From a bacterium (lineage in GTDB: Bacteria > Patescibacteriota > Doudnabacteria > UBA920): a stretch of 35,928 nucleotides of DNA. The stretch covers positions 1 through 35,928 of the forward strand of contig JAJYWK010000052.1 of NCBI GenBank assembly GCA_021791515.1, given 5' to 3'. Positions 2,531-20,157 of the stretch are shown piece by piece. Position numbers and translations under genes: made by a program. How positions within the stretch are numbered: the stretch's first letter is position 1; each line of letters starts with the position of its first letter. The notes under the pieces were generated by a model. It saw nothing but the letters and a program-made list of their open reading frames with translations. It searched no databases and was not told the DNA's origin.

Positions 2531-2605
2531 GGTGCCCGTAGTTCAATGGTAGAACGCTACTCTGTGGCAGTAGTCACGAGGGTTCGATTCCCTTCGGGCA
2601 CCCCA
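2531..2605 (+). tRNA. tRNA-His (anticodon GTG)
   Basis: The acceptor stem GTGCCCG (2532-2538) pairs with CGGGCAC (2595-2601). G at 2531 is the extra G-1 of tRNA-His and pairs with C2602. The anticodon stem CTACT/AGTAG encloses the loop CTGTGGC, giving anticodon GTG. The T arm carries GGTTCGATTCC. CCA is encoded at 2603-2605. A -10-like TATAAA lies at 2521-2526. The 3' end is the integration target: the recombinase gene enters it antisense, and the last six bases (ACCCCA) are the proposed attachment core. Confidence 0.95.
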
Positions 2606-4276
2606 GACGGTATCTAATATAACCGAGTCCGGTTGATTGGATGCCATCACAGGAATCTCGGCATTACGTCGGGATTTTTGTGTTTTAGGGGCAATCATCT
2701 TGGGTTTTGATTTACCGGCTACTACCGGTGTAAATTCGACCGTCATGTCGGTTATGATCTTTGGTTCTCTAATCTCCTTGTATTTCTTGGTAAAGACCAT
2801 GTCCTCGGCTTGCATGAGTCCTCGAATGATCGGAGTTGGCAGTACGGTCACTACTTTTTTGTCAGTTACTTCAAATCTGTCCCAGTAAAGACCGAGGAAC
2901 AGTCGTTTCATTTCGTCCGGGGCTTTGGTATATGCCTCATAGGCATTGCGGACAAACAGCAAAACGTCTTGGAGCTCGTCGACTCGCAGGTTAAGTTTCT
3001 TGTCTTGGGCATAAATCTCATCTTGCAGGGCTTCGATCTGCTCTTTGATTTTTACCTTTACTCTGGTGAAGTCGTCATCAGTTATGAGTCCGGCAAAGAG
3101 CTTTTCCTCGGCCACGTCTCGTTTCTTTTCGGCCAGCATCTTTTGAGTATTCAATGCTCGCTTTTCTTTGTTTATTGTTTCTTTTCGTGAGCCGTAGATT
3201 TTTTCTATCTTTGCGACCAGCCGTTCGGTAAAGCTCGGCGTAAATTCTATAAATTTAAACAAGTTAGCGATCTGCTGTTCCAGATCCCAGACTTCCACAT
3301 ATTTATCATGGCATTTGATCTGATCGCCGGACCGGTTGCAGTGATAGTAGGATTTATTTTTCTTAGGATGATGTTCGGCAGTGTATCGCTGTCCGCAGTT
3401 GGCGCAGAAAGTAAGTCCTCGGAGTATGAAGTTAAACTTTTGCCGACGGCAGGCATATCGATTGTGTTCAGCCATGACGAGCTGGACACGTTCCCATGTT
3501 TCTTTATCAATAAGCGGTTTATGTTTTCCGGTATGTACCAATCCTCTCCAACGCATTTCGCCATAATAAAAAGGGTTTTTGAGGACTTCGATCATCTTGC
3601 TATGGGCAAGTCGTTTACCAGCGTGAGTTCTGAACCCTTTCTTGTATAAAGCGTCACGGACTTCGTAGACGGAATAATCACCGGTAACGTACATGTTGAA
3701 TGCTTCCTGAACGAGCGGCGCGCGTTCCTCGTCCACGATAATGATCCTCTTTTTCTCATCATTCGGATCACCGGCGTTTAAATATCCGACTGCAACGCCG
3801 GTTGGCCACCAGCCGTCCCAGAATTTCTGCTCGAGGCTCTTCAAAGTCTTTCTTGATGTGATCTGCGATTGGAGTTGGTTTACGCCGGCGATTACTAAGT
3901 CCATAAAGTTTCCCTCCGGGGAGTCGGTTATTCCTGGCTGGGAGACGGAGAATAATTCCACATCGTGCTTTTTGAGGATCGCTTTGATCTGCATGTGGTC
4001 GAGCGCGTTTCTCGCCAACCGATCGGTGTCTTGGATAAAGACAGCTCGAATGGCTTTATCGTCTTGGACTCGAAGAAGCATGTCTTGGAGTCCTGGCCGG
4101 TTCATGTTTGTGGCTGATCGTCCCGGGTCTTCAAAGACGCCCTCGTTTGCCAGTTTATATTTGTTGCTCTCCTCGATCGCTCGCTTGCAAAGCTTGAGCT
4201 GGGTTGCGAGCGAATGATGGCCGTCCTCGGCTTGCTCTTCGGTCGAGACTCGGCAGTAAATTAATGCATGTTCCAT
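2543..4276 (-). CDS. Large serine recombinase (integrase)
   Basis: 577 residues. The N-terminal resolvase domain (about 1-150) starts 'MEHALIYCRVSTEEQ', with R9 and nucleophile S11. A recombinase domain (about 165-275) follows ('GYLNAGDP', 'LKNPFYYGEMRWRG'). A zinc ribbon at 285-330 has CANC and a distal HC/C pair. A long coiled coil (about 365-450) completes the LSR architecture. It should integrate and excise the island. The last 19 codons, and the TGA stop, are antisense to tRNA-His, so the C-terminus is supplied by the host gene. In the excised circle the frame would instead continue into 20913-21047. The start lies next to 'aatatgaaaatact' with no Shine-Dalgarno sequence. Confidence 0.92.
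   Translation of the reverse strand: MEHALIYCRVSTEEQAEDGHHSLATQLKLCKRAIEESNKYKLANEGVFEDPGRSATNMNRPGLQDMLLRVQDDKAIRAVFIQDTDRLARNALDHMQIKAILKKHDVELFSVSQPGITDSPEGNFMDLVIAGVNQLQSQITSRKTLKSLEQKFWDGWWPTGVAVGYLNAGDPNDEKKRIIIVDEERAPLVQEAFNMYVTGDYSVYEVRDALYKKGFRTHAGKRLAHSKMIEVLKNPFYYGEMRWRGLVHTGKHKPLIDKETWERVQLVMAEHNRYACRRQKFNFILRGLTFCANCGQRYTAEHHPKKNKSYYHCNRSGDQIKCHDKYVEVWDLEQQIANLFKFIEFTPSFTERLVAKIEKIYGSRKETINKEKRALNTQKMLAEKKRDVAEEKLFAGLITDDDFTRVKVKIKEQIEALQDEIYAQDKKLNLRVDELQDVLLFVRNAYEAYTKAPDEMKRLFLGLYWDRFEVTDKKVVTVLPTPIIRGLMQAEDMVFTKKYKEIREPKIITDMTVEFTPVVAGKSKPKMIAPKTQKSRRNAEIPVMASNQPDSVILDTVWGARRESNPRDYCHRVAFYH
2600..2605. other. Putative attL core in the tRNA-His 3' end
   Basis: ACCCCA covers the last two acceptor bases, the discriminator and the CCA of tRNA-His. 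The tRNA is intact after integration because the core restores these bases. Serine recombinases need only a very short crossover core (2 bp), so a short match is not unusual. Confidence 0.45.
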
Positions 4277-7899: not shown

Positions 7900-10845
7900 A
7901 TGAAAATCACTGATCACCACGCAAAATATTTTGCCTACGAGTTAACCAAGCGATGTTCCTCGGACAGCTTGGAGAAATTGTCGTCCACACTTTCCAACGC
8001 GCAAGTTGATCTTAATCCCCATCAGATAGAGGCGGCATTGTTTGCGTTCCGATCGCCACTCTCCAAAGGAGCTATCCTCGCAGACGAAGTCGGTCTTGGA
8101 AAAACAATTGAAGCCGGACTTGTACTATCGCAAAAATGGGCTGAAAGAAAACGAAAAATATTACTTATACTGCCATCGAGCCTACGCAAGCAATGGAATG
8201 CCGAGTTGCAAGAAAAATTCTTTTTGCCATCGATTATTTTAGAAACAAAATCATTCAATCAATACGTTAAAGACGGCAATCTGAACCCGTTCGATCAGGA
8301 AGATGTTGTCGTCATCTGCTCGTATCATTTTGCCCGGTCAAAATCTTCTTATATAAAACAAACCAAGTGGGACATTGTTGTAATTGATGAAGCCCATCGT
8401 CTACGTAATGTATATAAAAACAGTAATAAGATTGCTCGAGAAATAAAGGATGCATTAGTTGATGTTCCGAAAATTTTGCTTACGGCTACACCGCTTCAAA
8501 ACTCCCTCCTTGAGCTGTACGGTTTAGTAAGTATTATCGATGACCATGTATTCGGTGATCTTAAGAGTTTCAAAGTTAACTATGCCCGACTCTCACGCGA
8601 GCAGGATGTTTATGAGGGCGAGCTTGGTATGGTTGAACCGCGACAGGAGATGTTTACCGATTTACGCAACCGGCTGAAGCCGGTTTGCATTCGTACGTTG
8701 CGAAGGCAGGTTCTTGAATATATCAAATACACCAAGCGGATTCCGCTTACTCAAAATTACATTCCTACTGAAGAAGAAGTTGAACTTTACAATGGTATGT
8801 CCGAATACCTGCAAAGAACGAAGCTGTTTGCTTTGCCTAATAGTCAACGTCAGCTTATTACCATGATTTTGCGAAAGCTTCTGGCGTCATCGTCTTTCGC
8901 TATCGCCAGCACACTGAATAGTCTGGTGTTCAAACTTTCGAAACTTATTGAGAAAGTGGAGAAGCAAAAAGCGGCCGAGGATAGTGGGATTGAGGGCCTT
9001 GATCAGAACTTTGAGACGCTTGATGAAGTATCGGACGAATGGATAGACAACGAAGAGGACGACGGCACAGAAGAGACGGAAACAAAAAAGATACAGTATA
9101 CCGACGAAGACGTTGCATTGATGAAATCGGAAAAGGTTGATCTTGAAAAATTTCGGGATGTTGCCAAGAAAATTTGGAAAAACTCCAAAGGAGATGCCCT
9201 GCTTACTGCGCTTAAAAAAGGTTTTGAAATGACCGAAGAGCTTCATGCAAATAAAAAGGCCATTATTTTCACCGAGTCCACCATCACCCAGAACTATCTT
9301 TTGCAACTACTTTCGGAAAATGGTTATACGGATAAGATAGTTTTATTTAATGGTTCGAACAACGACGAAAAGTCAAAACAGATTTATGCTACTTGGCTTA
9401 AGGACAACAAGGATACGGACAATGTAACCGGCTCGAAAACTGCAGACATGCGCGCGGCTCTGGTTGAATATTTCAGGGATGAGGCGGAAATTATGATTGC
9501 CACTGAAGCCGCGGCCGAGGGCGTGAATTTACAATTTTGCTCATTGCTTATTAATTATGACCTCCCATGGAATCCGCAAAGGATTGAACAGCGTATCGGC
9601 CGGTGCCACCGCTACGGCCAGAAATATGATGTTGTCGTGATCAATTTTGTTAATCTTAAAAACGCCGCCGATCAGCGCGTGTATCAGCTCTTGGATCAAA
9701 AATTCAATTTGTTCAAGGGTGTATTCGGCGCAAGCGATGAAGTTCTCGGAAGCATTGAATCTGGTGTGGATTTTGAAAAGCGTATCGCCGGTATTTATCA
9801 AACCTGCCGAAGCGAAGAAGAAATCAACACGGCCTTTGATGGCTTGCAAAAAGAGATGGACGAGAGCATCCAAAATAACCTGCGTGATACTCGCCAGAAA
9901 TTGTTAGAAAACTTCGATGCCGAAGTGCATGAAAAGCTCAAAGTTAATCTTAAAGAAAGTGAAGCGTATCTGGATACTTATACTCGCTGGCTATGGGATG
10001 CAACAAAATATTATCTCGGCGACCACGCTGATTTTGCTGAACACGAGTATTCTTTTACGCTTAAAAATAATCCATTCCCAAACGAACAGATTGATCCGGG
10101 ACCGTACAAAATCGGCAAGAATATTGATGATGCCCATATTTACCGGCCAGGGCATCCTTTGGCTCAAAAGATCCTTGGTGAGATCAAAGCCAAGCCGGCA
10201 GGTGAATCTGAGATAACTTTTGATTACTCCACTAATTCCACGATTATTTCTATTCTAGAACCGCTTGTTGGCAAAAGTGGTATTTTGAAAGTTTCCAATT
10301 ACACCGTCGAGGCTTTTGAAGCCGAGGACTCCGTGGTTGTATCGGCTATTGATGAATCGGGCAATCCGGTTGATGGAGAAATTACCAAGAAGTTGTTTTC
10401 AATTGCCGCGCGAGATGTAAAAGCCGCAGTAGTTTCTCCGGAAGAAAAAACTAAGCTGGACGAATTGGAAAGCCAAACTATTACTATGGTCTCTGGTCGG
10501 ATCGCCGAGCGTAACAGTGAGTTTTTCGATAATGAAGTAGACAAGCTGGACAAATGGGCGGAAGACATGAAGAAAGCCCTTGAGCTTGATCTTAAAAAAC
10601 TGGATGTTGATATTAAAATTTCAAAAACAAACGCCAAGAAAATCCTTAACCTCAATGAAAAATTGAAAGCCCAGCGTGGTATTAAGGATATGGAAAAGAA
10701 ACGCAATGAGATGCGCAAGAAACTGTACGAAGCGCAGGACGACGTGGAAGGCAGAAAAGAGAAGCTTATTGGGCAAGTCGAGTCTCAATTAAAACAAAAA
10801 TCAAAGCTTGAGCCGCTATTCACCATCCGGTGGAAAGTTGTATAA
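7900..10845 (+). CDS. SNF2/RapA-family helicase-like ATPase (defence-associated)
   Basis: 981 residues. The RecA-like N-lobe has 'ADEVGLGKT' (Walker A, about 61-69), 'VVIDEAHRLRN' (Walker B) and 'LLTATPLQN' (motif III). The C-lobe has 'EGVNLQFCSLLINYDLPWNPQRIEQRIGRCHRYGQ' (motifs V and VI). An acidic insertion (about 365-405) sits between the lobes. The C-terminal 250 residues are charged and helical with likely coiled coil (about 860-965). Such ATPases translocate on duplex DNA without strand separation and recur in DISARM (DrmD) and related systems. It lies upstream of type III mod/res and probably acts with them. Confidence 0.88.
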   Translation: MKITDHHAKYFAYELTKRCSSDSLEKLSSTLSNAQVDLNPHQIEAALFAFRSPLSKGAILADEVGLGKTIEAGLVLSQKWAERKRKILLILPSSLRKQWNAELQEKFFLPSIILETKSFNQYVKDGNLNPFDQEDVVVICSYHFARSKSSYIKQTKWDIVVIDEAHRLRNVYKNSNKIAREIKDALVDVPKILLTATPLQNSLLELYGLVSIIDDHVFGDLKSFKVNYARLSREQDVYEGELGMVEPRQEMFTDLRNRLKPVCIRTLRRQVLEYIKYTKRIPLTQNYIPTEEEVELYNGMSEYLQRTKLFALPNSQRQLITMILRKLLASSSFAIASTLNSLVFKLSKLIEKVEKQKAAEDSGIEGLDQNFETLDEVSDEWIDNEEDDGTEETETKKIQYTDEDVALMKSEKVDLEKFRDVAKKIWKNSKGDALLTALKKGFEMTEELHANKKAIIFTESTITQNYLLQLLSENGYTDKIVLFNGSNNDEKSKQIYATWLKDNKDTDNVTGSKTADMRAALVEYFRDEAEIMIATEAAAEGVNLQFCSLLINYDLPWNPQRIEQRIGRCHRYGQKYDVVVINFVNLKNAADQRVYQLLDQKFNLFKGVFGASDEVLGSIESGVDFEKRIAGIYQTCRSEEEINTAFDGLQKEMDESIQNNLRDTRQKLLENFDAEVHEKLKVNLKESEAYLDTYTRWLWDATKYYLGDHADFAEHEYSFTLKNNPFPNEQIDPGPYKIGKNIDDAHIYRPGHPLAQKILGEIKAKPAGESEITFDYSTNSTIISILEPLVGKSGILKVSNYTVEAFEAEDSVVVSAIDESGNPVDGEITKKLFSIAARDVKAAVVSPEEKTKLDELESQTITMVSGRIAERNSEFFDNEVDKLDKWAEDMKKALELDLKKLDVDIKISKTNAKKILNLNEKLKAQRGIKDMEKKRNEMRKKLYEAQDDVEGRKEKLIGQVESQLKQKSKLEPLFTIRWKVV

Positions 10846-10874
10846 AAAATTATCAAATAATTAACTAAAAATAT

Positions 10875-11711
10875 ATGACAGAAAACAATAAACTTATAGC
10901 AATTTTTGAAGACCAGCCTGTTCGTCGAACGTGGAATGCGAAAGAAGAAAAATGGTACTTCAGCGTGGTTGACATTATTGGTGTCTTGAGCCAAAGCTCG
11001 GACCCTAGAAACTACTGGAAAGTGCTCAAAAACCGGTTAAATAAGGAAGGAAGTGAAGTGGTTACAAAATGTAACCAGTTGAAAATGATCGCTCCTGACG
11101 GCAAAATGCGCGAAACCGATGCGGCCGACGTGGAGACCATTTTCCGGCTTGTCCAATCGGTACCCTCTCCCAAGGCTGAGCCATTCAAACTTTGGTTAGC
11201 CAAAGTTGGTTATGAGCGAATGCAGGAAACCGTTGATCCTGAATTGGCGGTAAATCGTGGGAGAAAGACTTGGCAGATGATGGGACGAAGTCAAAAGTGG
11301 ATTGAACAGAGAATGATGAGCGTTGAGACGAGAAATAAGCTCACTGATTATTGGTCTGAACATGGAATTGAGAAAGGCCAAGAATTCGCGAAGCTTACAA
11401 ATATCATCCATCAAGAATGGAGTGGCCTTTCCGTCAAGACGCATAAGAAAATAAAAAATCTAACCTATCATAATTTGCGCGATCACATGAGCGAGGCCGA
11501 AATTATTTTCACGGCTTTAGCAGAACTTTCTACTCGCCAGATTTCCGAAAAAGAAAAGGCCGAGGGTTATTCTCAAAATGAAATCGCCGCGAAAAAGGGT
11601 GGACAAATTTCTGGCAACGCGCGCAAAGCATTGGAAGATCAAACAGGTAAACGGGTCGTAAATTCTGAGAATTTTTTGCCGAATAAGAAAGATCCTAAGC
11701 AATTAAAATAA
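10875..11711 (+). CDS. BRO-N/DinD-like protein
   Basis: 278 residues. The N-terminal 110 residues ('IAIFEDQPVRRTWNAKEEKWYFSVVDIIGVLSQSSDPRNYWKVLKNRL', 'LPDGKMRETDAADVETIFRLVQSVPS'-type core) form a BRO-N-like antirepressor domain. The remainder ('WLAKVGYERMQETVDPELA', 'KLTDYWSEHGIEKGQEFAKLTNIIHQEWSGLSVKTHK') resembles DinD, a DNA-damage-inducible protein that acts on RecA in E. coli. It lies between the helicase and mod, with a 1-base gap to mod, so it belongs to the operon. A sensor of damage or of phage status is an inference. Confidence 0.72.
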   Translation: MTENNKLIAIFEDQPVRRTWNAKEEKWYFSVVDIIGVLSQSSDPRNYWKVLKNRLNKEGSEVVTKCNQLKMIAPDGKMRETDAADVETIFRLVQSVPSPKAEPFKLWLAKVGYERMQETVDPELAVNRGRKTWQMMGRSQKWIEQRMMSVETRNKLTDYWSEHGIEKGQEFAKLTNIIHQEWSGLSVKTHKKIKNLTYHNLRDHMSEAEIIFTALAELSTRQISEKEKAEGYSQNEIAAKKGGQISGNARKALEDQTGKRVVNSENFLPNKKDPKQLK

Positions 11712-11712
11712 T

Positions 11713-13296
11713 ATGACTAAAAAGCAAAAACTTGAATTGACGTGGATCGGCAAGGACGAAGAGCTCAAGCTCGAGCCGAGGATTTTAATCGAGGACCCGG
11801 ACAAGTCCTATGGAGACAAGTCGGCCGAGAATATGCTCATCCACGGCGATAACCTCCTCGCGCTCAAAGCCCTTGAGCAGGATTTCGCTGGCCGCATTAA
11901 ATGTATTTATATCGATCCGCCCTACAACACTGGTAGTGCTTTTGAACATTATGACGATAACCTTGAGCATTCTATTTGGCTCAATTTAATACGTCCACGG
12001 TTAGATATTCTGAAAACCCTTTTGGATAAAGATCAGGGTAGCATCTGGATTTCAATTGATGATACAGAGTCTCACTATTTAAAAGTGCTTTGTGATGAGG
12101 TTTTTGGTAGAAATAATTTTGTTGCAACAGTTATCTGGGAGAAGAAACACACTAGGAGTAATGATGCGAGATGGCTTTCCGACAATCATGATTTCGTTCT
12201 ATGCTACGCAAAAAATAAGTCACAATGGCAAAGAAATTTACTTCCCCGAACGGACGAGGATTCGAATGGTTATTCAAATATTGACAATGATCCACGAGGT
12301 GTTTGGGCATCAGGACCTTGTCATGCAAAAACACCAAACCCAAAAGATATTTATCCAATAACTACCCCGTCAGGCAGGACTCTTATGCCACCAGCTGGTA
12401 CAAGCTGGAGATTTTCAGAAAAAAGATTTGAAGAGTTAATCAAAGATAATCGCATTTATTTTGGCGACAAAGGGAATAACGTGCCTCGTTATAAAAGATT
12501 TCTCACGGAGGTTCAGCAAGGGTTAGTGCCAATTACAATATGGTTCCGTGAAGAAGTTGGTGATAACCAAGAAGCAAAACAAGAAATAAAAAAGTTATTT
12601 GCTGAAGATCCATTTTCTACTCCAAAACCAGAGAGACTCATTAAACGGATTCTGGATATTGCTTCGAAGCCGGGCGATTGGGTTTTAGATTCATTCCTTG
12701 GTTCCGGCACTACTTCAGCCGTGGCACACAAGACCGGACGGAAACATATCGGTATTGAATTCGGTGATCATGCTGACACGCACTGCTTGCCTCGTTTGAA
12801 AAAAGTTGTTGATGGTTCTGATGGCTTGGCTTTGTCGGAAGCACTTGGCTGGAAAGGCGGAGGTGGATTTAAGTTTTATAATCTTGCACCGAGCCTGCTT
12901 CGCAAGGATTCTTTCGGCAATTTTGTGATCGATGAAAAATACAACAGCAATATGTTGGCGGCCGCCATGTGTAAGCATGAGGGTTTCAAGTTCTATCCGG
13001 ATGAGGCACTGTATTGGAAGCACGGAAAGTCCACGGAAAATGATTTTATTTTTGTCACTACTGGTTTTGTTACGGCTGAACAGTTAGAAAAAGTTCACAG
13101 CGAAATGAAAGCCGGCGAGAGTTTACTCATTTGCGCCAAATCGTTTGCACCGGAATGCGAAAGCCGTTTTGCCGATATTACAATCAAAAAGATTCCGCAG
13201 ATGATTCTTGGTCGTTGCGAATTCGGTAAAGATAACTACGATCTGAATATTATCAAGGCCACTGAAGCGGAGGCGGAAGAATCTAACGAATCCTAA
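11713..13296 (+). CDS. mod: Type III restriction-modification methyltransferase subunit (Mod)
   Basis: 527 residues. 'CIYIDPPYNTG' (about 64-74) is the DPPY catalytic motif, and 'DSFLGSGTTS' (about 326-335) the SAM-binding FxGxG motif. The DPPY-before-FxGxG order marks a class beta N6-adenine methyltransferase of the type III group. The central segment between the motifs (about 125-310) should hold the target-recognition domain; its DNA is visibly more AT-rich than the flanks. The C-terminal 190 residues probably contact Res. Start ATG 11713 directly follows the preceding stop. Mod both marks host DNA and gives sequence specificity to Res. Confidence 0.9.
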   Translation: MTKKQKLELTWIGKDEELKLEPRILIEDPDKSYGDKSAENMLIHGDNLLALKALEQDFAGRIKCIYIDPPYNTGSAFEHYDDNLEHSIWLNLIRPRLDILKTLLDKDQGSIWISIDDTESHYLKVLCDEVFGRNNFVATVIWEKKHTRSNDARWLSDNHDFVLCYAKNKSQWQRNLLPRTDEDSNGYSNIDNDPRGVWASGPCHAKTPNPKDIYPITTPSGRTLMPPAGTSWRFSEKRFEELIKDNRIYFGDKGNNVPRYKRFLTEVQQGLVPITIWFREEVGDNQEAKQEIKKLFAEDPFSTPKPERLIKRILDIASKPGDWVLDSFLGSGTTSAVAHKTGRKHIGIEFGDHADTHCLPRLKKVVDGSDGLALSEALGWKGGGGFKFYNLAPSLLRKDSFGNFVIDEKYNSNMLAAAMCKHEGFKFYPDEALYWKHGKSTENDFIFVTTGFVTAEQLEKVHSEMKAGESLLICAKSFAPECESRFADITIKKIPQMILGRCEFGKDNYDLNIIKATEAEAEESNES

Positions 13297-13297
13297 T

Positions 13298-15949
13298 ATG
13301 AATACAAAAGCACAAGCAATCAAAAATCGTTTGAGTCTCCGCAAGCCGCAAGCGGACAGTTTGGAAATCTTGGAAAAACTGGCAGATACGCTGGAATTAA
13401 AGAAAGGGGTTGATCCAGTGTCTGAATTGGCAAAGGTTCGGGCATTGTATCCGACATGCTCGGATTTTGAACGAGACTTTCCCTCGGTTTGTTTTTCCTT
13501 GGCTACCGGCGTTGGAAAAACTCGCCTCATGGGTGCGTTCATTTCGTATCTTTACGTTGCCAAAGGCATTAAGAATTATTTTGTCCTGGCTCCCAACCTT
13601 ACGATTTACAATAAGCTCATTGACGATCTTTCCAATCCGCAAAATCCGAAGTATGTATTTAGGGGAATCGCCGAGTTTGCCGTCACGCCTCCCCGGGTCA
13701 TTACCGGAGACAATTACGCTGAAGCGCGGCAAAGCACTTTGTTTAAGGAGTCGGTCAATATAAACATTTTTAATATTTCCAAGATCAATTCCGAAGTCCG
13801 GGGCGGTAAAGAGCCGAAGATTAAAAGATTATCAGAATATCTTGGTGAGTCATATTTCAACTATCTTTCCGAATTGTCGGACCTCGTGCTTCTAATGGAC
13901 GAATCACACCATTATCGCGCTGATGCCGGACTCCGAGCGATCAATGAGTTGAAGCCAATTTTAGGCCTTGAGCTCACCGCTACCCCGATTGATACGCGCG
14001 GCAATAAATTCAAAAATGTTGTTTTTGATTATCCGCTGGCCCGGGCTTTGCAGGACGGTTTTGTAAAAGAACCGGCTATTGCCACTCGTCGCGACTTTAA
14101 TCCTGACCAATACCGCAATGATCCAAAAGAGCTGGATTTGATAAAGCTTGAAGATGGAATTCGTATTCATGAAGATACTAAAGTTGCTCTGGATATTTAT
14201 GCCCGTGATACCGGTAATCGTTTGGTCCGGCCGTTCGTGCTGGTTGTTGCCCGAGATACGGATCATGCCAAAGAAATTCGGACGATGATTGAATCGGACC
14301 GGTTTTTTGAGGGTAGATATACCGGCAAGGTAATGGAAATTCATTCCAATCAACGCGGCGAAGAAAAAGAGGAAAATGTTCAGAGGCTTATCGATTTGGA
14401 AAAACCGGAAAATCCGATAGAGATTGTCGTTCACGTTAACATGCTCAAGGAGGGCTGGGACGTTACTAATCTCTACACCATCATTCCTTTGCGCGCGGCC
14501 AATTCCCAGATTCTTACCGAGCAAACTATCGGCCGTGGCTTACGATTACCTTTCGGTGCCAGGACCGGTGTTGAAAAGGTAGACAAGCTCACTATTATCG
14601 CTCATGACCGCTTTCAATCCATTGTGGATGCGGCTAATGATCCCAATTCTATAATTCGGCAGGAGAATATCATTGAAATTGACCCGAATACTTTGCCGGA
14701 AGAGCAGGAAGTTATTACCGCATCATCGGTTACGGAAGAAGCGTTTACTGAAAAGCGCAAAGAAATTGCCAACATCACCAATGAGGCCGAACGACAAAAA
14801 GCCGGCTTTGCGTTGGAGGCCGAGCAGTTAATAACCGAGGCAGTAAGCACTCTTGGCGCGAATATAAAAAATATCAATGATTTAAAGAACGACGAAATTC
14901 GAAAACTAGCTTTCGAGAAAATGGTGGAAAGTATAGAAAACAATCCACAACAAAATCTTTTCAAGGCCAATCTCGTTGAGGCGGCCAAACAGGAATACGA
15001 GAACGTTATCTCCGAGTTTATTGATAAAACAATCGCCATTCCGCGCGTGCTTATTCAGCAGAAGCATGACGTTAAATCCGGCTTCCAAGATTTTGATCTG
15101 GACGTTGCTGGTCTGAACTATCAGCCAGTATCTGAAGAAATCATCCGCAGGACTCTGCGCACTAATGAAAGCGAAATTTTGCAAAGCGAAAGCTCGGGCG
15201 TTGTGCGCGATATTCCGGAGAATATTCTCGTCAACGAATTGATCAACTATCCGGAGGTTGATTATGACCGCGAGGCTGAACTCTTATATAAATTGTCACG
15301 GCAAGCCATTGCCAAGCTCGGAAAAGATCGGGACGCCGATGATCTGAAAAATATCGTTCTCTACCACAAAAGAGAAATCGGCCGCTATATTTATGCCCAG
15401 CTTCAACAGAATTTTTATTTGGAAACCTCCGGCTTTGAAGAACCGATCGTGTATCCGTTTGATCGCATTAAACCGCATAACTTTTCCAAATATACGGCTG
15501 ACAGTGTTCATCATTATACCGAGACCATAAACCCTACCCACGCGATCCCTTCAAAGGTTTTCGGCGGATTTAAGAAGGCCTGCCATAATCTTTACAAATT
15601 CGATTCTAAGGCCGAGAAAGACTTCGCCGCAATTTTGGAAAAAGATACCGATGTTTTGAAGTGGCTCCGGCCGGCCGAGTCCCAGTTTGAGCTTTATTGG
15701 AAGCATAATTCAAAACGCTATCATCCGGATTTTGTGGTCGAGACAGTAGATACGATCTTTATGGTTGAGATCAAGGCGGAAAAAGATATTGATGACACTG
15801 AAGTCCAAGAAAAAGCCGAGGCTGGAAAGAAATATTGCGAAGTGGTGTCGACTTTTAATGTAGCCAACGGCGGCAAAAAGTGGACCTACGTTCTAATTCC
15901 GCACACCGCCGTCGTGGCGAATATGAGCTTGAAGAGTTTGTGTAAGTAA
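13298..15949 (+). CDS. res: Type III restriction enzyme subunit (Res)
   Basis: 883 residues. An SF2 helicase core has 'LATGVGKTRLMGA' (Walker A, about 68-80), 'LLMDESHHYRADAG' (DEAH-box variant, about 197) and 'LELTATPIDTRGNKF'. The second lobe includes 'VHVNMLKEGWDVTNLYTIIPLRAANSQILTEQTIGRGLRLP'. The C-terminal PD-(D/E)XK nuclease has 'YHPDFVVETVDTIFMVEIKAE' (D near 811, E-x-K near 826). It hydrolyses ATP, communicates along DNA and cuts at a distance from the Mod site. It starts one base after the mod stop. All motifs are present, so the enzyme appears intact. Confidence 0.9.
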   Translation: MNTKAQAIKNRLSLRKPQADSLEILEKLADTLELKKGVDPVSELAKVRALYPTCSDFERDFPSVCFSLATGVGKTRLMGAFISYLYVAKGIKNYFVLAPNLTIYNKLIDDLSNPQNPKYVFRGIAEFAVTPPRVITGDNYAEARQSTLFKESVNINIFNISKINSEVRGGKEPKIKRLSEYLGESYFNYLSELSDLVLLMDESHHYRADAGLRAINELKPILGLELTATPIDTRGNKFKNVVFDYPLARALQDGFVKEPAIATRRDFNPDQYRNDPKELDLIKLEDGIRIHEDTKVALDIYARDTGNRLVRPFVLVVARDTDHAKEIRTMIESDRFFEGRYTGKVMEIHSNQRGEEKEENVQRLIDLEKPENPIEIVVHVNMLKEGWDVTNLYTIIPLRAANSQILTEQTIGRGLRLPFGARTGVEKVDKLTIIAHDRFQSIVDAANDPNSIIRQENIIEIDPNTLPEEQEVITASSVTEEAFTEKRKEIANITNEAERQKAGFALEAEQLITEAVSTLGANIKNINDLKNDEIRKLAFEKMVESIENNPQQNLFKANLVEAAKQEYENVISEFIDKTIAIPRVLIQQKHDVKSGFQDFDLDVAGLNYQPVSEEIIRRTLRTNESEILQSESSGVVRDIPENILVNELINYPEVDYDREAELLYKLSRQAIAKLGKDRDADDLKNIVLYHKREIGRYIYAQLQQNFYLETSGFEEPIVYPFDRIKPHNFSKYTADSVHHYTETINPTHAIPSKVFGGFKKACHNLYKFDSKAEKDFAAILEKDTDVLKWLRPAESQFELYWKHNSKRYHPDFVVETVDTIFMVEIKAEKDIDDTEVQEKAEAGKKYCEVVSTFNVANGGKKWTYVLIPHTAVVANMSLKSLCK

Positions 15950-16047: not shown

Positions 16048-16075
16048 ACTGTGTATAACTTATAGTGATGATAAC

Positions 16076-16104
16076 TTGACTTTTATTTATATCCTTGCTA
16101 GGAT
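16076..16104 (+). promoter_or_regulatory. Promoter of the retron-like region
   Basis: TTGACT (16076-16081), 17 bases, then TAGGAT (16099-16104) preceded by TGC give an extended -10 promoter. The start would be near 16111, directly before a run of hairpins. Confidence 0.6.
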
Positions 16105-16107
16105 ATC

Positions 16108-16360
16108 CAATGAGGACGATTCGTCCTCTACGCTCATTGAAAGTAAATAGAGAGGATCACTCTAAAATAATGCAAGCTAGGCTCTCACGGGCATACGCCC
16201 ACCTTGAAAAGAGGCTTTGGCCTCTTACTTCTCGAAAGAGAAGGCACCTTGCCCCGGGCATGTATTTGTTCTGCTCTGTTAACAGGAAAGTGTTCAGCAA
16301 TAAATGTGTATGTACTTAAACATAAACATTTTATGCAATACACAACACTGATATCAGTTA
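16108..16360 (+). ncRNA. Candidate retron msr-msd RNA
   Basis: No convincing gene occupies this span. It folds into consecutive hairpins. GAGGACG/CGTCCTC lies within the outer arms CAATGAG (16108-16114) and CTCATTG (16133-16139). GGGC/GCCC is at 16189-16200. AAGAGGC-TTTG-GCCTCTT is at 16209-16226, and CTTCTC-GAAA-GAGAAG (GNRA loop) at 16228-16243. A longer hairpin has TGTGTAT (16305-16311) pairing ATACACA (16338-16344) with an inner CATAAA/TTTATG, followed by the 12-base palindrome ACTGATATCAGT (16347-16358). Three short stem-loops then a longer one is the layout of msr followed by msd. The a1/a2 ends and the branching G could not be placed. Confidence 0.5.
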
Positions 16361-16387
16361 TAAGGCAAATAAATTTGTAAGGGTAAC

Positions 16388-16546
16388 GGTATAAGTTCTT
16401 ATAGGTTTTCCCCTATACGTGCTTTAACGGTTCTGCCACTTTAAGTAGTCGCAGGCCAATTTACCGCCAATGAGCCGAGAGTCAATGTTGGCTTGCGACG
16501 AACGAAGTTGCGGGATCGTTAATTGCAGTTACTGTCGCATATTAAC
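16388..16546 (+). ncRNA. Second structured non-coding segment upstream of the retron genes
   Basis: GTCGCAGGCCAA (16448-16459) pairs with TTGGCTTGCGAC (16488-16499) over 12 pairs including one G-U. GTTAAT (16518-16523) pairs with ATTAAC (16541-16546). TATAAG/CTTATA and TATAGG/CCTATA hairpins lie near 16391-16417. It could be the 3' part of the retron RNA or a leader controlling the following genes. Confidence 0.4.
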
Positions 16547-16565
16547 CATTAACATTCCAAAACTT

Positions 16566-16862
16566 ATGAGTAAAAATAGTTCGGACAATCAAAAAGAAAG
16601 AGTGATCACCCTACTAACCAACTTCAACCGATTGACCCTGAAAGTCATGAAATTGAAGGTCAAGGATAGGCAGGCTCTCGGCCTGCTTGCTGAGGCCATG
16701 CAAATTAATAAGCAAATGTTGTCTTTAGCAAAAGATAACAAGATCAGCTTTGAGTTTGTAAGGCAAACGTTTTCTGTCATCGCCGCGGTGGTGAAAGAGA
16801 CGGTCAGCAAGTGGCTCTTCCGTTACAATTTAACGCCATTAATGGCACTGAAACTATGTTAA
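16566..16862 (+). CDS. Small helical protein of unknown function
   Basis: 98 residues from ATG 16566. I prefer this start because the in-frame ATG at 16470 would translate the 12-bp RNA stem. The protein looks entirely helical ('ERVITLLTNFNRLTLKVMKLKVKDRQALGLLAEAMQINKQMLSLAKD') with a hydrophobic C-terminal third ('FSVIAAVVKETVSKWLFRYNLTPLMAL'), perhaps membrane-associated. No family recognised. Its stop codon overlaps the start of the XRE gene (ATGTTAA), so it is translated together with the retron genes and may be part of that system. Confidence 0.55.
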   Translation: MSKNSSDNQKERVITLLTNFNRLTLKVMKLKVKDRQALGLLAEAMQINKQMLSLAKDNKISFEFVRQTFSVIAAVVKETVSKWLFRYNLTPLMALKLC

Positions 16863-17170
16863 CAGTCGGACAATTAATAAAAATAGGCAGGATCAATAAA
16901 AAGCTAGGCCAAGAAGATGTGGCCAGCAAATTGAAGGTGTCTAAAAATTACATCTCTCTTGTTGAAAATGGTAAAAAAGACCCAAGCATCAATTTCCTAA
17001 AAGGGGTGTCTAATTTTCTTGATATACCCTTGATTCTTTTAATGTGGGAGAAAATTGATATGCCGAAGGGAAAAACCGAAGGGGAAAGAAAAATTGCATC
17101 CCAGTTAGAAAAAATGCTTGAGGAGGCACAACGTTTATTTTCCGAGAAAACTTTTGGCAAGAAAAAATGA
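16856..17170 (+). CDS. XRE-family helix-turn-helix regulator
   Basis: 104 residues. Residues 5-60 form a typical Cro/CI HTH ('VGQLIKIGRINKKLGQEDVASKLKVSKNYISLVENGKKDPSINFLKGVSNFLDIPL'). The C-terminal third is a charged helix ('ERKIASQLEKMLEEAQRLFSEKT'). I chose ATG 16856, which overlaps the preceding stop; an upstream in-frame GTG at 16811 would add 15 residues outside the fold. Its end overlaps the reverse transcriptase start (ATGA). A small HTH protein next to a retron reverse transcriptase is the arrangement reported for HTH-associated (type VI) retrons, so it may be an effector or antitoxin as well as a regulator. Confidence 0.85.
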   Translation: MLTVGQLIKIGRINKKLGQEDVASKLKVSKNYISLVENGKKDPSINFLKGVSNFLDIPLILLMWEKIDMPKGKTEGERKIASQLEKMLEEAQRLFSEKTFGKKK

Positions 17171-18087
17171 AAAAACGAGCATCTTTAAAAATCAACACAA
17201 CAAAAGAGCTCGGGTTGCAACTAGGTCTGCCCGAGGATTTTTTAATAAGGACTAGCGAGTATATCGAGCAATGCTACAAAAAATTTCCTGGCACCGATAA
17301 GAAGGGCAAAAAGCGACCTTTTTACAAAGCCAATAGTGATCTTAAGAAAATACACAGGAAAATTAATAAACTCTTAGACGCTCTTGAGTACCCAGTTAAT
17401 ATTCAAGGCGGTATAGTCGATCGCTCAATACACACCAACGCTTCGATGCATTCGGGTAAAAAATATGTAGCTAATTTTGATATTAAGAATTTTTTCCCAA
17501 GCGTAAAATTTAAGACAGTCTATCGAGCTTTTCGAATGCAGAATTGCACGCCGGATGTCAGTAGGATGTTAACTCGACTTACTACGGCAGATACGGCCCT
17601 GCCTCAAGGGTTTGCCACGAGTCCAAAAGTATCAGGCCTTGTGCTACTGAATGTCAATCGCCGATTAAGTATACTGTTCAAAAAATACGGACTGGCGCAC
17701 ACTTTTTGGATTGACGATCTGACGATCTCTGGTTATCGCCCTATTCAGAAGTTTCAAAAACTACTCAATAAGATTTTCAAACAGGAAGGATTTGTTTTGC
17801 ACGACGATCCAAAAAAGACAAAGTTTACATCATCGGAAGAGAGGCAAACATGTACTGGATTGGTCATTAATCAGGAGCCAAATGCCGAAAAAAGCGTCAG
17901 GGAGAGAGTGAGAAAGGAATTATATCTTTGCAGTAAATTTGGGGTGGATAGCTATCTCAAAGACCACGATCTCCTGGTGGACAAAGAAAAGTATCTAATG
18001 TCCTTGCGAGGCAAGATAAGTTTCCTAACCGCCGCAAATAAAAAGAATATGATTTTCAAGGAACAATTTGCAAACCTTAAAGTTTAA
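17167..18087 (+). CDS. Retron-type reverse transcriptase
   Basis: 306 residues, a usual retron RT length. Visible motifs in order: 'NASMH' (91-95), the NAxxH signature of retron RTs; 'FDIKNFF' (104-110), motif A with the first catalytic Asp; 'LPQGFATSP' (145-153), motif B; 'FWIDDLTIS' (180-188), the catalytic DD box with W-I in place of Y-A; and 'CTGLVIN' (229-235), close to the VTGLVVN signature read by the cognate RNA. There is no maturase or endonuclease domain, which argues against a group II intron. It should make a branched RNA-DNA hybrid from the structured RNA upstream. Overlap with the XRE gene indicates coupled translation. Confidence 0.85.
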   Translation: MKKRASLKINTTKELGLQLGLPEDFLIRTSEYIEQCYKKFPGTDKKGKKRPFYKANSDLKKIHRKINKLLDALEYPVNIQGGIVDRSIHTNASMHSGKKYVANFDIKNFFPSVKFKTVYRAFRMQNCTPDVSRMLTRLTTADTALPQGFATSPKVSGLVLLNVNRRLSILFKKYGLAHTFWIDDLTISGYRPIQKFQKLLNKIFKQEGFVLHDDPKKTKFTSSEERQTCTGLVINQEPNAEKSVRERVRKELYLCSKFGVDSYLKDHDLLVDKEKYLMSLRGKISFLTAANKKNMIFKEQFANLKV

Positions 18088-18092
18088 TCACC

Positions 18093-18842
18093 ATGTCTGA
18101 ATACTATAACCCAAATAGAGACGCTTCGTGGAATTACGGAGGAAAGAATTGGAAACTAAGCCGTTCTAAAATTGACCTGTTTTCGGAGTGTCCTCGATGT
18201 TTTTATATGGATAATAAACTCGGCGTGAAGCGAGTGCCCGGATTCCCTTTTTCTATAAACAGTGCGGTGGACTATCTGCTTAAACAAGAATTTGATGGTT
18301 TTCGAGTAAAGAATGAGCAACACCCACTTCAAAAAGAATACGGCATAGATGCGCGGCCGATGTCTCACGCTGAACTTGATGAATGGAGGAGAAATTTTGG
18401 CGGTATCAGATATTTGCATGAACCGACTGGACTTTTGGTAACCGGCGCGATTGACGATTTATGGATCAATGGGAAAGACGAATATATTGTTGTCGATTAT
18501 AAAGCAACAGCAAAGGACGAGGCGGTAAAAGCATTAGACAAAGAATGGCAAGATGGCTACAAGCGACAAATGGAAGTCTATCAGTGGTTACTGCGACAGA
18601 ATGGACTAAAAGTTTCTGATATTGGATATTTTGTTTACTGCACCGGAAAAATGGACCGGCAAGCTTTTGATAAGCGAATTGATTTTGACGTGAATCTAAT
18701 AGAACACAAAGGCAATGATTCGTGGGTAGAAAAGACCTTATTTGAAATAAAGAAGTGCTTGGACAGCGGTGAAATACCACAATCCAGCGAAGGCTGTGAT
18801 CATTGTGCATATTGGAATTCTCGTAGACAATTTGAGAAATAA
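18093..18842 (+). CDS. Cas4/RecB-like PD-(D/E)XK nuclease with four cysteines
   Basis: 249 residues. 'LSRSKIDLFSECPRCFYMD' (22-40) is the N-terminal motif of the Cas4/RecB/PDDEXK_1 family. 'TGAIDDLWI' (117-125) and 'YIVVDYKAT' (131-139) supply the metal-binding D and the D-x-K pair. 'QMEVYQW' (159-165) is the QxxxY motif. C33, C36, C235 and C238 could bind a 4Fe-4S cluster, as a 2+2 pair rather than the 1+3 usual in Cas4. No CRISPR array or other cas gene is present. It starts 5 bases after the reverse transcriptase stop, so it may belong to the retron module or be a separate island repair/defence nuclease. Confidence 0.82.
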   Translation: MSEYYNPNRDASWNYGGKNWKLSRSKIDLFSECPRCFYMDNKLGVKRVPGFPFSINSAVDYLLKQEFDGFRVKNEQHPLQKEYGIDARPMSHAELDEWRRNFGGIRYLHEPTGLLVTGAIDDLWINGKDEYIVVDYKATAKDEAVKALDKEWQDGYKRQMEVYQWLLRQNGLKVSDIGYFVYCTGKMDRQAFDKRIDFDVNLIEHKGNDSWVEKTLFEIKKCLDSGEIPQSSEGCDHCAYWNSRRQFEK

Positions 18843-19155: not shown

Positions 19156-20157
19156 ATGAAAATCAACAACACATTCAAACTCATAATTTCGCTCATTATC
19201 CCACAGTTGGCAGGAGGATTGGGAAGCTACTTTACGATCGGTTCGGTGAGAGATTGGTATCCGGTGCTGGTCAAGCCGGCTCTAAATCCACCGGCATGGA
19301 TATTTGGTCCGGTCTGGACGACACTGTTTCTTTTGATGGGCTACGCGCTGTATCTTGTCTGGAAGGACGATAGCGGAAAAAGCAAACGCCTGGCCTATTC
19401 AGCTTTTGGCATTCAAATGGTTTTAAACGCGCTTTGGTCAATTATCTTTTTCGGTCTGCACAGCCCAGGTGGTGCGCTCGTTGAGATGGTATTCCTCTGG
19501 CTCGCTATTCTCACTACGATCATTGCTTTTGCAAAAATCTCCAAACCAGCCGCATGGCTTTTGGTGCCATATATCCTTTGGGTCAGCTTTGCCGGATATC
19601 TTAACTATTCAATCTGGCAATTGAATTCAGTAGGTTCCGGGCAGGTTGCTTGCACACAGGAAGCCAAGCTTTGTCCGGATGGATCGTATGTCGGCCGCAC
19701 CGGACCTAAGTGCGAATTCTCTGCATGTCCGGGAGAAAATAACGACCTTTGGAAGACTGCGACCGAGAGTGGCATAACATTCCAGTATCCGGAGACATTG
19801 CTCACTACATACATCAACACGCAGGACTGGCCTCCGCAGATTCAGGTTTTAAATGAACTATATACTTGCACCGAAGCCGGATCGGAAACTGCCCGGGCCG
19901 GCAAGACTGAGAAGCAATTGGTTGATAACCGCGAATATTGCCGCACGAGCATCGTGGAGGGTGCGGCCGGAAGTATCTATACCAACTATGCATACGCCTT
20001 TCCGAAGGACGACAAGACGGTCATTTTTACATTCAGCTTGCGAGCCGTGCAGTGTGCCAATTACGACGATCCGCAAAAGACCGCCTGTGAGAACGAGCGG
20101 TCAGCATTTGATCTCGACAGTACCGTTGATCGGATGGCGAGAAGTATAGCCCAGTAA
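19156..20157 (+). CDS. TspO/MBR family protein fused to a secreted Cys-rich domain
   Basis: 333 residues. The first 155 are a five-helix TspO membrane protein: 'WYPVLVKPALNPPAWIFGPVWTTLFLLMGYALYLVW' and 'VLNALWSIIFFGLHSPG' are hallmark segments. TspO binds tetrapyrroles and influences porphyrin or stress metabolism. After helix 5 come 'VACTQEAKLCPDGSYVGRTGPKCEFSACP'-type cysteines (six-Cys patch, about 163-194), then a polar domain with four more Cys that probably folds outside the membrane. Ordinary TspO proteins end near residue 160, so this is a fusion. It is island cargo, tightly packed with neighbours; how it serves the element is unknown. Confidence 0.85.
   Translation: MKINNTFKLIISLIIPQLAGGLGSYFTIGSVRDWYPVLVKPALNPPAWIFGPVWTTLFLLMGYALYLVWKDDSGKSKRLAYSAFGIQMVLNALWSIIFFGLHSPGGALVEMVFLWLAILTTIIAFAKISKPAAWLLVPYILWVSFAGYLNYSIWQLNSVGSGQVACTQEAKLCPDGSYVGRTGPKCEFSACPGENNDLWKTATESGITFQYPETLLTTYINTQDWPPQIQVLNELYTCTEAGSETARAGKTEKQLVDNREYCRTSIVEGAAGSIYTNYAYAFPKDDKTVIFTFSLRAVQCANYDDPQKTACENERSAFDLDSTVDRMARSIAQ

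Follow-up and report, generated by a model that had tools for sequence, protein, structure and literature searches.

The locus lies on the forward strand of the window (the whole 35,928-nucleotide stretch that was analysed) and consists of a promoter, a structured non-coding RNA, a small helical ORF, an XRE-family gene encoding a helix-turn-helix (HTH) protein, a reverse transcriptase (RT) gene and a nuclease gene, all of which were located where a preliminary description of the sequence had placed them (Table 1). The reading frames are tightly packed: the small ORF and the HTH gene overlap by 7 bp, and the RT gene follows directly behind the XRE gene, as described, with an overlap of 4 bp. 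The nuclease starts 5 bases past the RT stop codon in the window and 2 bases past it in a related locus, L015, from Candidatus Falkowbacteria UBA11705. The host is probably a member of the Candidate Phyla Radiation (CPR), judging by its genome of 1.17 Mb at 98% completeness and by this named relative.

Table 1. Features of the locus (positions are those of the window)
Feature	Position	Strand	Remark
Whole cassette	16050..18842	+	homologous to L015 2044-4862; neighbours unrelated on either side
Promoter TTGACT-17-TAGGAT, extended TG	16076..16104	+	TTGACT-17-TATACT in L015/L016
Non-coding RNA, msr-msd candidate	16105..16565	+	fold z, covariation; transcript ends predicted
5' hairpin GAGGACGATTCGTCCTC	16112..16128	+	2/7 pairs compensatory
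Candidate a1 (GGCTCTC)	16180..16186	+	complementary to 16477-16483
msr-like hairpin 1 (GGGC-ATAC-GCCC)	16189..16200	+	AGTCG-TTCG-CGACT instead in G130
msr-like hairpin 2 (AAGAGGC-TTTG-GCCTCTT)	16209..16226	+	
msr-like hairpin 3 (CTTCTC-GAAA-GAGAAG)	16228..16243	+	
msd-like long interrupted stem	16283..16350	+	5/21 pairs compensatory
Nested 3' hairpin, loop carries GAGCCGAGAGTC	16424..16522	+	fold z -4.7 in window, -6.3 in L015
Candidate a2 (GAGAGTC)	16477..16483	+	pairs with candidate a1
Small three-helix protein, 98 aa	16566..16862	+	kept in three relatives; AF2 model
XRE-family HTH protein, 104 aa	16856..17170	+	HTH_VI 9.9e-19, HTH_3 6.2e-10
Retron RT, 306 aa	17167..18087	+	RT_VI 2.4e-63, RVT_1 3.6e-14, tree
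Cas4/RecB-like PD-(D/E)XK nuclease, 249 aa	18093..18842	+	PDDEXK_1 2.5e-13

The region directly upstream (7900-15949) encodes a large SNF2-type helicase, a protein of 278 aa and, at 11713-15949, the two genes of a type III restriction-modification pair; because of this pair and the helicase gene, the surroundings look like a defence island. A tRNA-His gene and, after it, a serine recombinase gene in convergent orientation (together 2532-4276) may represent an integration end of the island; in a search for a tRNA-His duplication as its other end, no stretch of 14 bases or longer from the tRNA region recurred anywhere else in the window. At 19156-20157, a TspO/MBR domain is encoded that has a long extension at its C-terminus.

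Among 380 genomes sampled from the phylum, an RT match at 1e-10 was obtained in six, of which, besides the window's own, only one exceeded 40% identity (G130, 47%). A profile scan of a species-genome collection with a two-row RT alignment returned L015 (67%), L016 (64%) and G130 once more (as L017), giving a clade of four members, three of them close. Single-sequence RT scans of genome and viral contigs found no relative, a four-row RT profile still found none in the viral contigs, and the classes around genomes G000, G124 and G130 contained no further member. L015 and L016 repeat the window's order of promoter, RNA, 95-aa helical ORF, HTH gene, RT gene and the same nuclease, of which L016 shows only the start because its contig ends. 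In G130 the HTH and RT are fused, with a 66-aa small ORF before them; the protein encoded after them has 511 aa and combines Cas4-like and DUF2779 parts.

A single blastn HSP covers the whole cassette in the comparison with L015 (74.6% identity), and the match to L016 runs from 16049 to 18229 (70.1%), where the L016 contig stops. The right edge of the block shared with L015 coincides exactly with the nuclease stop codon, and because the block ends there and the L015 flanks are unrelated, the nuclease belongs to the transferable unit: promoter, RNA, small protein, XRE protein, RT and Cas4-like nuclease travel as one cassette. Its left border (16050-16065) opens, right after a terminator-like hairpin, with TGTGTATAACTTATAG, which is kept in L016 and contains the DnaA-box-like TGTGTATAA.

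The preliminary description had proposed some 450 bp of hairpin-rich non-coding sequence beginning at its own promoter, with three compact stem-loops and a longer one read as msr followed by msd, and these elements lie where it placed them. The promoter is kept in L015 and L016 at the same position and with the same 17-nt spacing as in the window, and the promoter motif alone is not enriched (6 sites in the region against 7.0 expected from shuffles). The RNA of about 460 nt has a minimum free energy of -141.9 kcal/mol, compared with -108.6 kcal/mol in shuffles (z -5.4); its structure is conserved, and parts resembling msr and msd can be recognised in it. A covariation analysis of the window, L015 and L016 found compensatory changes in 10 of 77 pairs, where the shuffle mean was 4.1 and none of 500 shuffles scored as high, and these 77 named pairs were formed in 97.8% of cells against 37-46% with the partners slid; since the fold was derived from the same three sequences, these figures count as support and not as an independent test. 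The 5' hairpin and the msd-like stem hold most of the changes that affect both sides of a pair. An Rfam search matched no retron RNA.

Pairing of candidate a1 with candidate a2 recurs at equivalent places in L015 and L016 (GACTCTC/GAGAGTC) and in G130 (GGGCTCTCG/TGAGAGTCC). Among the window, L015 and L016 the helix says little, because it varies only once and on one side; in G130 it is the best long-range helix of the RNA. The G130 RNA, unalignable in sequence over most of its length, follows the same plan, with CTCTC, three small hairpins whose stems differ from those of the window, and a nested hairpin on the 3' side that carries GAGCTGAGAGTC in the loop. Its candidate arms lie at -254 and -62 from the small ORF, similar to the complementary arms found at about -232 to -246 and -49 to -59 in the type VI retron loci KS5, Psychrobacter and MuM16-1; the remaining type VI loci examined had no comparably clear complementary pair. 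The arms in these three loci, spotted by eye and not in a blind test, support the proposed a1/a2 pairing. In the window, L015 and L016, GCCGAGAG (16474-16481) has a further perfect complement within the small-protein gene, CTCTCGGC (16675-16682), which provides the candidate a2 region with a competing partner. This complement falls in a part of the gene where synonymous codons are conserved: at codons 35-56, 14 of 18 codons are unchanged, compared with 23 of 44 elsewhere in the gene. These complementary stretches may possibly form a putative switch between maturation of the RNA and translation of the small protein.

The small protein is 74% identical to its counterparts in both L015 and L016 and 35% identical to that in G130. 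Its AF2 model consists of three helices (pLDDT 76), for which Foldseek returned no match below E 0.2. A small protein before the HTH protein and the RT is part of type VI retrons according to PMC8541194, which together with the PADLOC models provided our definition of the type. The PADLOC SP_VI profiles do not match the window's small protein; in Pseudomonas they do match the ORF preceding the HTH gene (3.2e-38), and in Psychrobacter they match it weakly. The 98-aa ORF has no profile match of its own, but its position and conservation identify it as the type VI small protein, and the helical protein that had been singled out as unusual is thus no novelty. The adjoining HTH protein matched the PADLOC HTH_VI model in L015 (2.3e-19) as well as in the window.

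For the RT, the best PADLOC model was RT_VI (212 bits), with a lead of only 7 bits over the next model, III-A (204.6 bits), and all 25 of the PADLOC matches listed were retron RTs. Retron families of NCBIfam matched at 1e-37 to 1e-43, all under their curated cut-offs, and a group II maturase model matched at 8.7e-07, far under its own. The closest solved chains in the PDB were the Ec67, Ec86, Kva2 and Ec78 RTs. On these PADLOC, NCBIfam and PDB results, the enzyme is a retron RT that has diverged from every type with a profile. An AF2 model built from the four-row alignment reached a pLDDT of only 49. The retron motifs NASMH and CTGLVIN that had been claimed for the window are both present; G130 has SVGLVIN in place of the latter, and only its G is kept. 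YxDD is the usual catalytic motif of retron RTs, although not a strictly defining one. The active site of the window's RT reads FWIDD (17704-17718), and WIDD replaces YxDD in all four members of the clade; the remaining 25 RTs in our tree have YxDD, save for one type V RT with LLDD. Both aspartates are retained, so activity of the WIDD enzyme is possible. In a distant RT from another genome (L005) the motif is RWIDD.

In the tree of 29 RTs, which includes 13 type VI rows, the RTs of the window, L015, L016 and G130 form their own clade (support 100/100), and a split separates this clade and types VI and V from type III, type I-C and the others (93/90). The clade is placed beside type VI and not inside it, but joining it to the main part of type VI is not rejected (AU p 0.20). 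The 13 type VI rows are themselves not a single clade (AU p 0.0017), because type V groups with one part of them. An earlier, smaller tree had rejected uniting the window clade and every type VI row in one group (p 0.008), which is consistent with type VI being split. The phylogeny, offered at the outset as a check on the retron assignment, places the RT on the V/VI side of the tree; the outcome that would have refuted the assignment, an RT falling among group II introns, was not observed. The WIDD motif and the long branch could still speak for some other RT system, such as a DRT or a group II derivative, but the best profiles are all from retron RTs, other RT classes score far lower, and the nearest solved structures are those of Ec67, Ec86 and Kva2; we regard such an origin as highly improbable, and the RT-RNA module is almost certainly a retron.

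Direct reading of the nuclease shows the motifs DYK (DxK) and QxxxY and four cysteines in two CxxC pairs (C33 and C36, C235 and C238). Against the Cas4 models it scored under the family cut-offs (26.9 bits against 65 for TIGR00372, 21.9 against 22.7 for Cas_Cas4), and no CRISPR genes were seen nearby; a PDB sequence search gave nothing significant. The nuclease is 95% identical to its L015 copy, compared with 67% for the RT, and its dN of 0.026 and dS of 0.90 indicate purifying selection. This higher identity had raised the possibility of a recent exchange of the nuclease, but dS is high in the nuclease and the small protein (0.99) alike and saturated in the RT and HTH genes; exchange is thus the less likely reading, and strong constraint the simpler one. 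Members of the family occur in 103 of 287 genomes of the phylum, nearly all without this retron, and lie directly behind another gene in about 10 of 29 loci; the window's genome has one copy. Elsewhere, the family was observed 0-4 bp behind a Dsr1-like gene, a type I restriction subunit, a Fic gene and a UG14-type RT (loci L020, L029, L039 and L047), and the immediate upstream genes also include those for lactate permease and MgtC. Its frequency in the phylum and its place behind other defence genes elsewhere suggest that the enzyme is perhaps an accessory nuclease of a generic kind. Of the preliminary account of a four-Cys Cas4-like nuclease just downstream of the RT, the location stands, and the enzyme is a genuine part of the cassette, but it is not specific to this retron.

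The nuclease could be a passenger, a generic enzyme found behind many operons and carried along with the retron, as its frequency in the phylum, its varied upstream partners and its far lower divergence than that of the RT would suggest; yet it has kept the same place despite unrelated flanks, and the gene is intact and constrained, and we consider this reading quite possible without leaning towards it. At the other extreme, the nuclease would be the main effector, kept inactive by a complex of RT, msDNA and HTH protein, with the small protein as an adaptor and phage attack releasing DNA degradation. Consistent with such a role are its position inside a cassette that ends at its stop codon, the 5 bases in the window and 2 in L015 that separate it from the RT gene, the different Cas4-like/DUF2779 protein directly behind the RT in G130 and the precedent of Retron-Eco8, whose effector is a nuclease according to PMC12887533. 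The family is mostly found without this retron, however, trailing other defence genes, and is absent from those type VI loci of phages and plasmids that were inspected, which makes the main-effector role unlikely. Functional coupling of some kind between nuclease and retron is plausible, if slightly short of probable. A broader proposal, that the locus represents a distinct CPR retron lineage in which a WIDD RT and msDNA control the Cas4-like nuclease as an exchangeable effector, which genomes of this kind would also couple to other defence modules (Dsr1-like, Fic, UG14-type RT and type I restriction), seems distinctly unlikely.

The explanation we prefer is a retron of type VI layout, on a separate branch of the V/VI assemblage and with a type VI-like mechanism, which is probably correct. 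In its favour, besides the RT and HTH profiles, the RNA covariation, the a1/a2-like pairing, the cassette boundaries and the purifying selection on the nuclease, the order of small protein, HTH protein and RT behind an upstream non-coding stretch recurs in phage and plasmid type VI loci, and the small protein is homologous in all four loci of the clade; against it stand the narrow RT_VI lead, the tree position, the split within type VI, the unmatched SP_VI profiles and the small size of the clade. Retrons are immune modules of bacteria that reverse-transcribe RNA of their own into DNA. Function is assigned by analogy with known retrons, which guard against phages by restraining a toxic effector until infection sets it off (for example PMC12548924). 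The RT would prime on a guanosine adjoining the a1/a2 helix and copy part of 16244-16476 into msDNA, and a complex of RT, msDNA and HTH protein would hold the small protein inactive and repress the promoter. Interference with this complex by a phage would then free the effector and stop or kill the cell. Most likely, the small protein would be that effector, a role favoured because its gene is kept across type VI loci, and the nuclease would most likely be an accessory that contributes DNA degradation.

Few retrons have been worked out as little as those of type VI, and the open-access text that we found only names their parts. A limited open-access literature search likewise returned no description of retrons from the present lineage, in agreement with the preliminary remark that they are little described. 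Because the lineage offers a compact cassette of defined extent, an RNA fold that covaries and candidate a1/a2 arms, it becomes directly testable whether msDNA forms and what the small protein and the nuclease do. The distribution of the nuclease suggests that ultra-small bacteria may reuse one such enzyme behind several immune modules.

Compared with known systems, the nuclease has the DxK, QxxxY and CxxC motifs of Cas4/RecB-family PD-(D/E)XK enzymes and departs from Cas4 in its scores and its neighbourhood. Coupling of an RT gene to a nuclease gene is shared with Ec78 (type I-A, ATPase-HNH), Ec67/Eco2 (RT-Toprim) and Eco8, whereas the window's nuclease is a stand-alone Cas4/RecB-like protein with four cysteines. 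Type V retrons (Se72-like, L057) share the window clade's side of the RT tree; in L057 a 'retron Se72 family' effector gene follows the RT, and no HTH or small-protein gene precedes it in the stretch seen. Type VI retrons, reportedly due to Mestre et al. 2020, are represented by Mu- and P2-like phages (MuM16-1, P2_2H1, KS5) and plasmids; they share with the window the non-coding stretch, the gene order with its overlaps and the best profiles of both HTH protein and RT. Unlike them, the window has a separate RT clade, WIDD, a small protein outside SP_VI, a nested 3' RNA hairpin and a nuclease gene within the cassette. In the type VI loci of Microvirga and Scytonema (L063 2489-3448; L066 2414-3178), a TIR protein and an unknown 254-aa protein are encoded close behind the RT, and because of these genes additional effectors may be present in other type VI retrons too.
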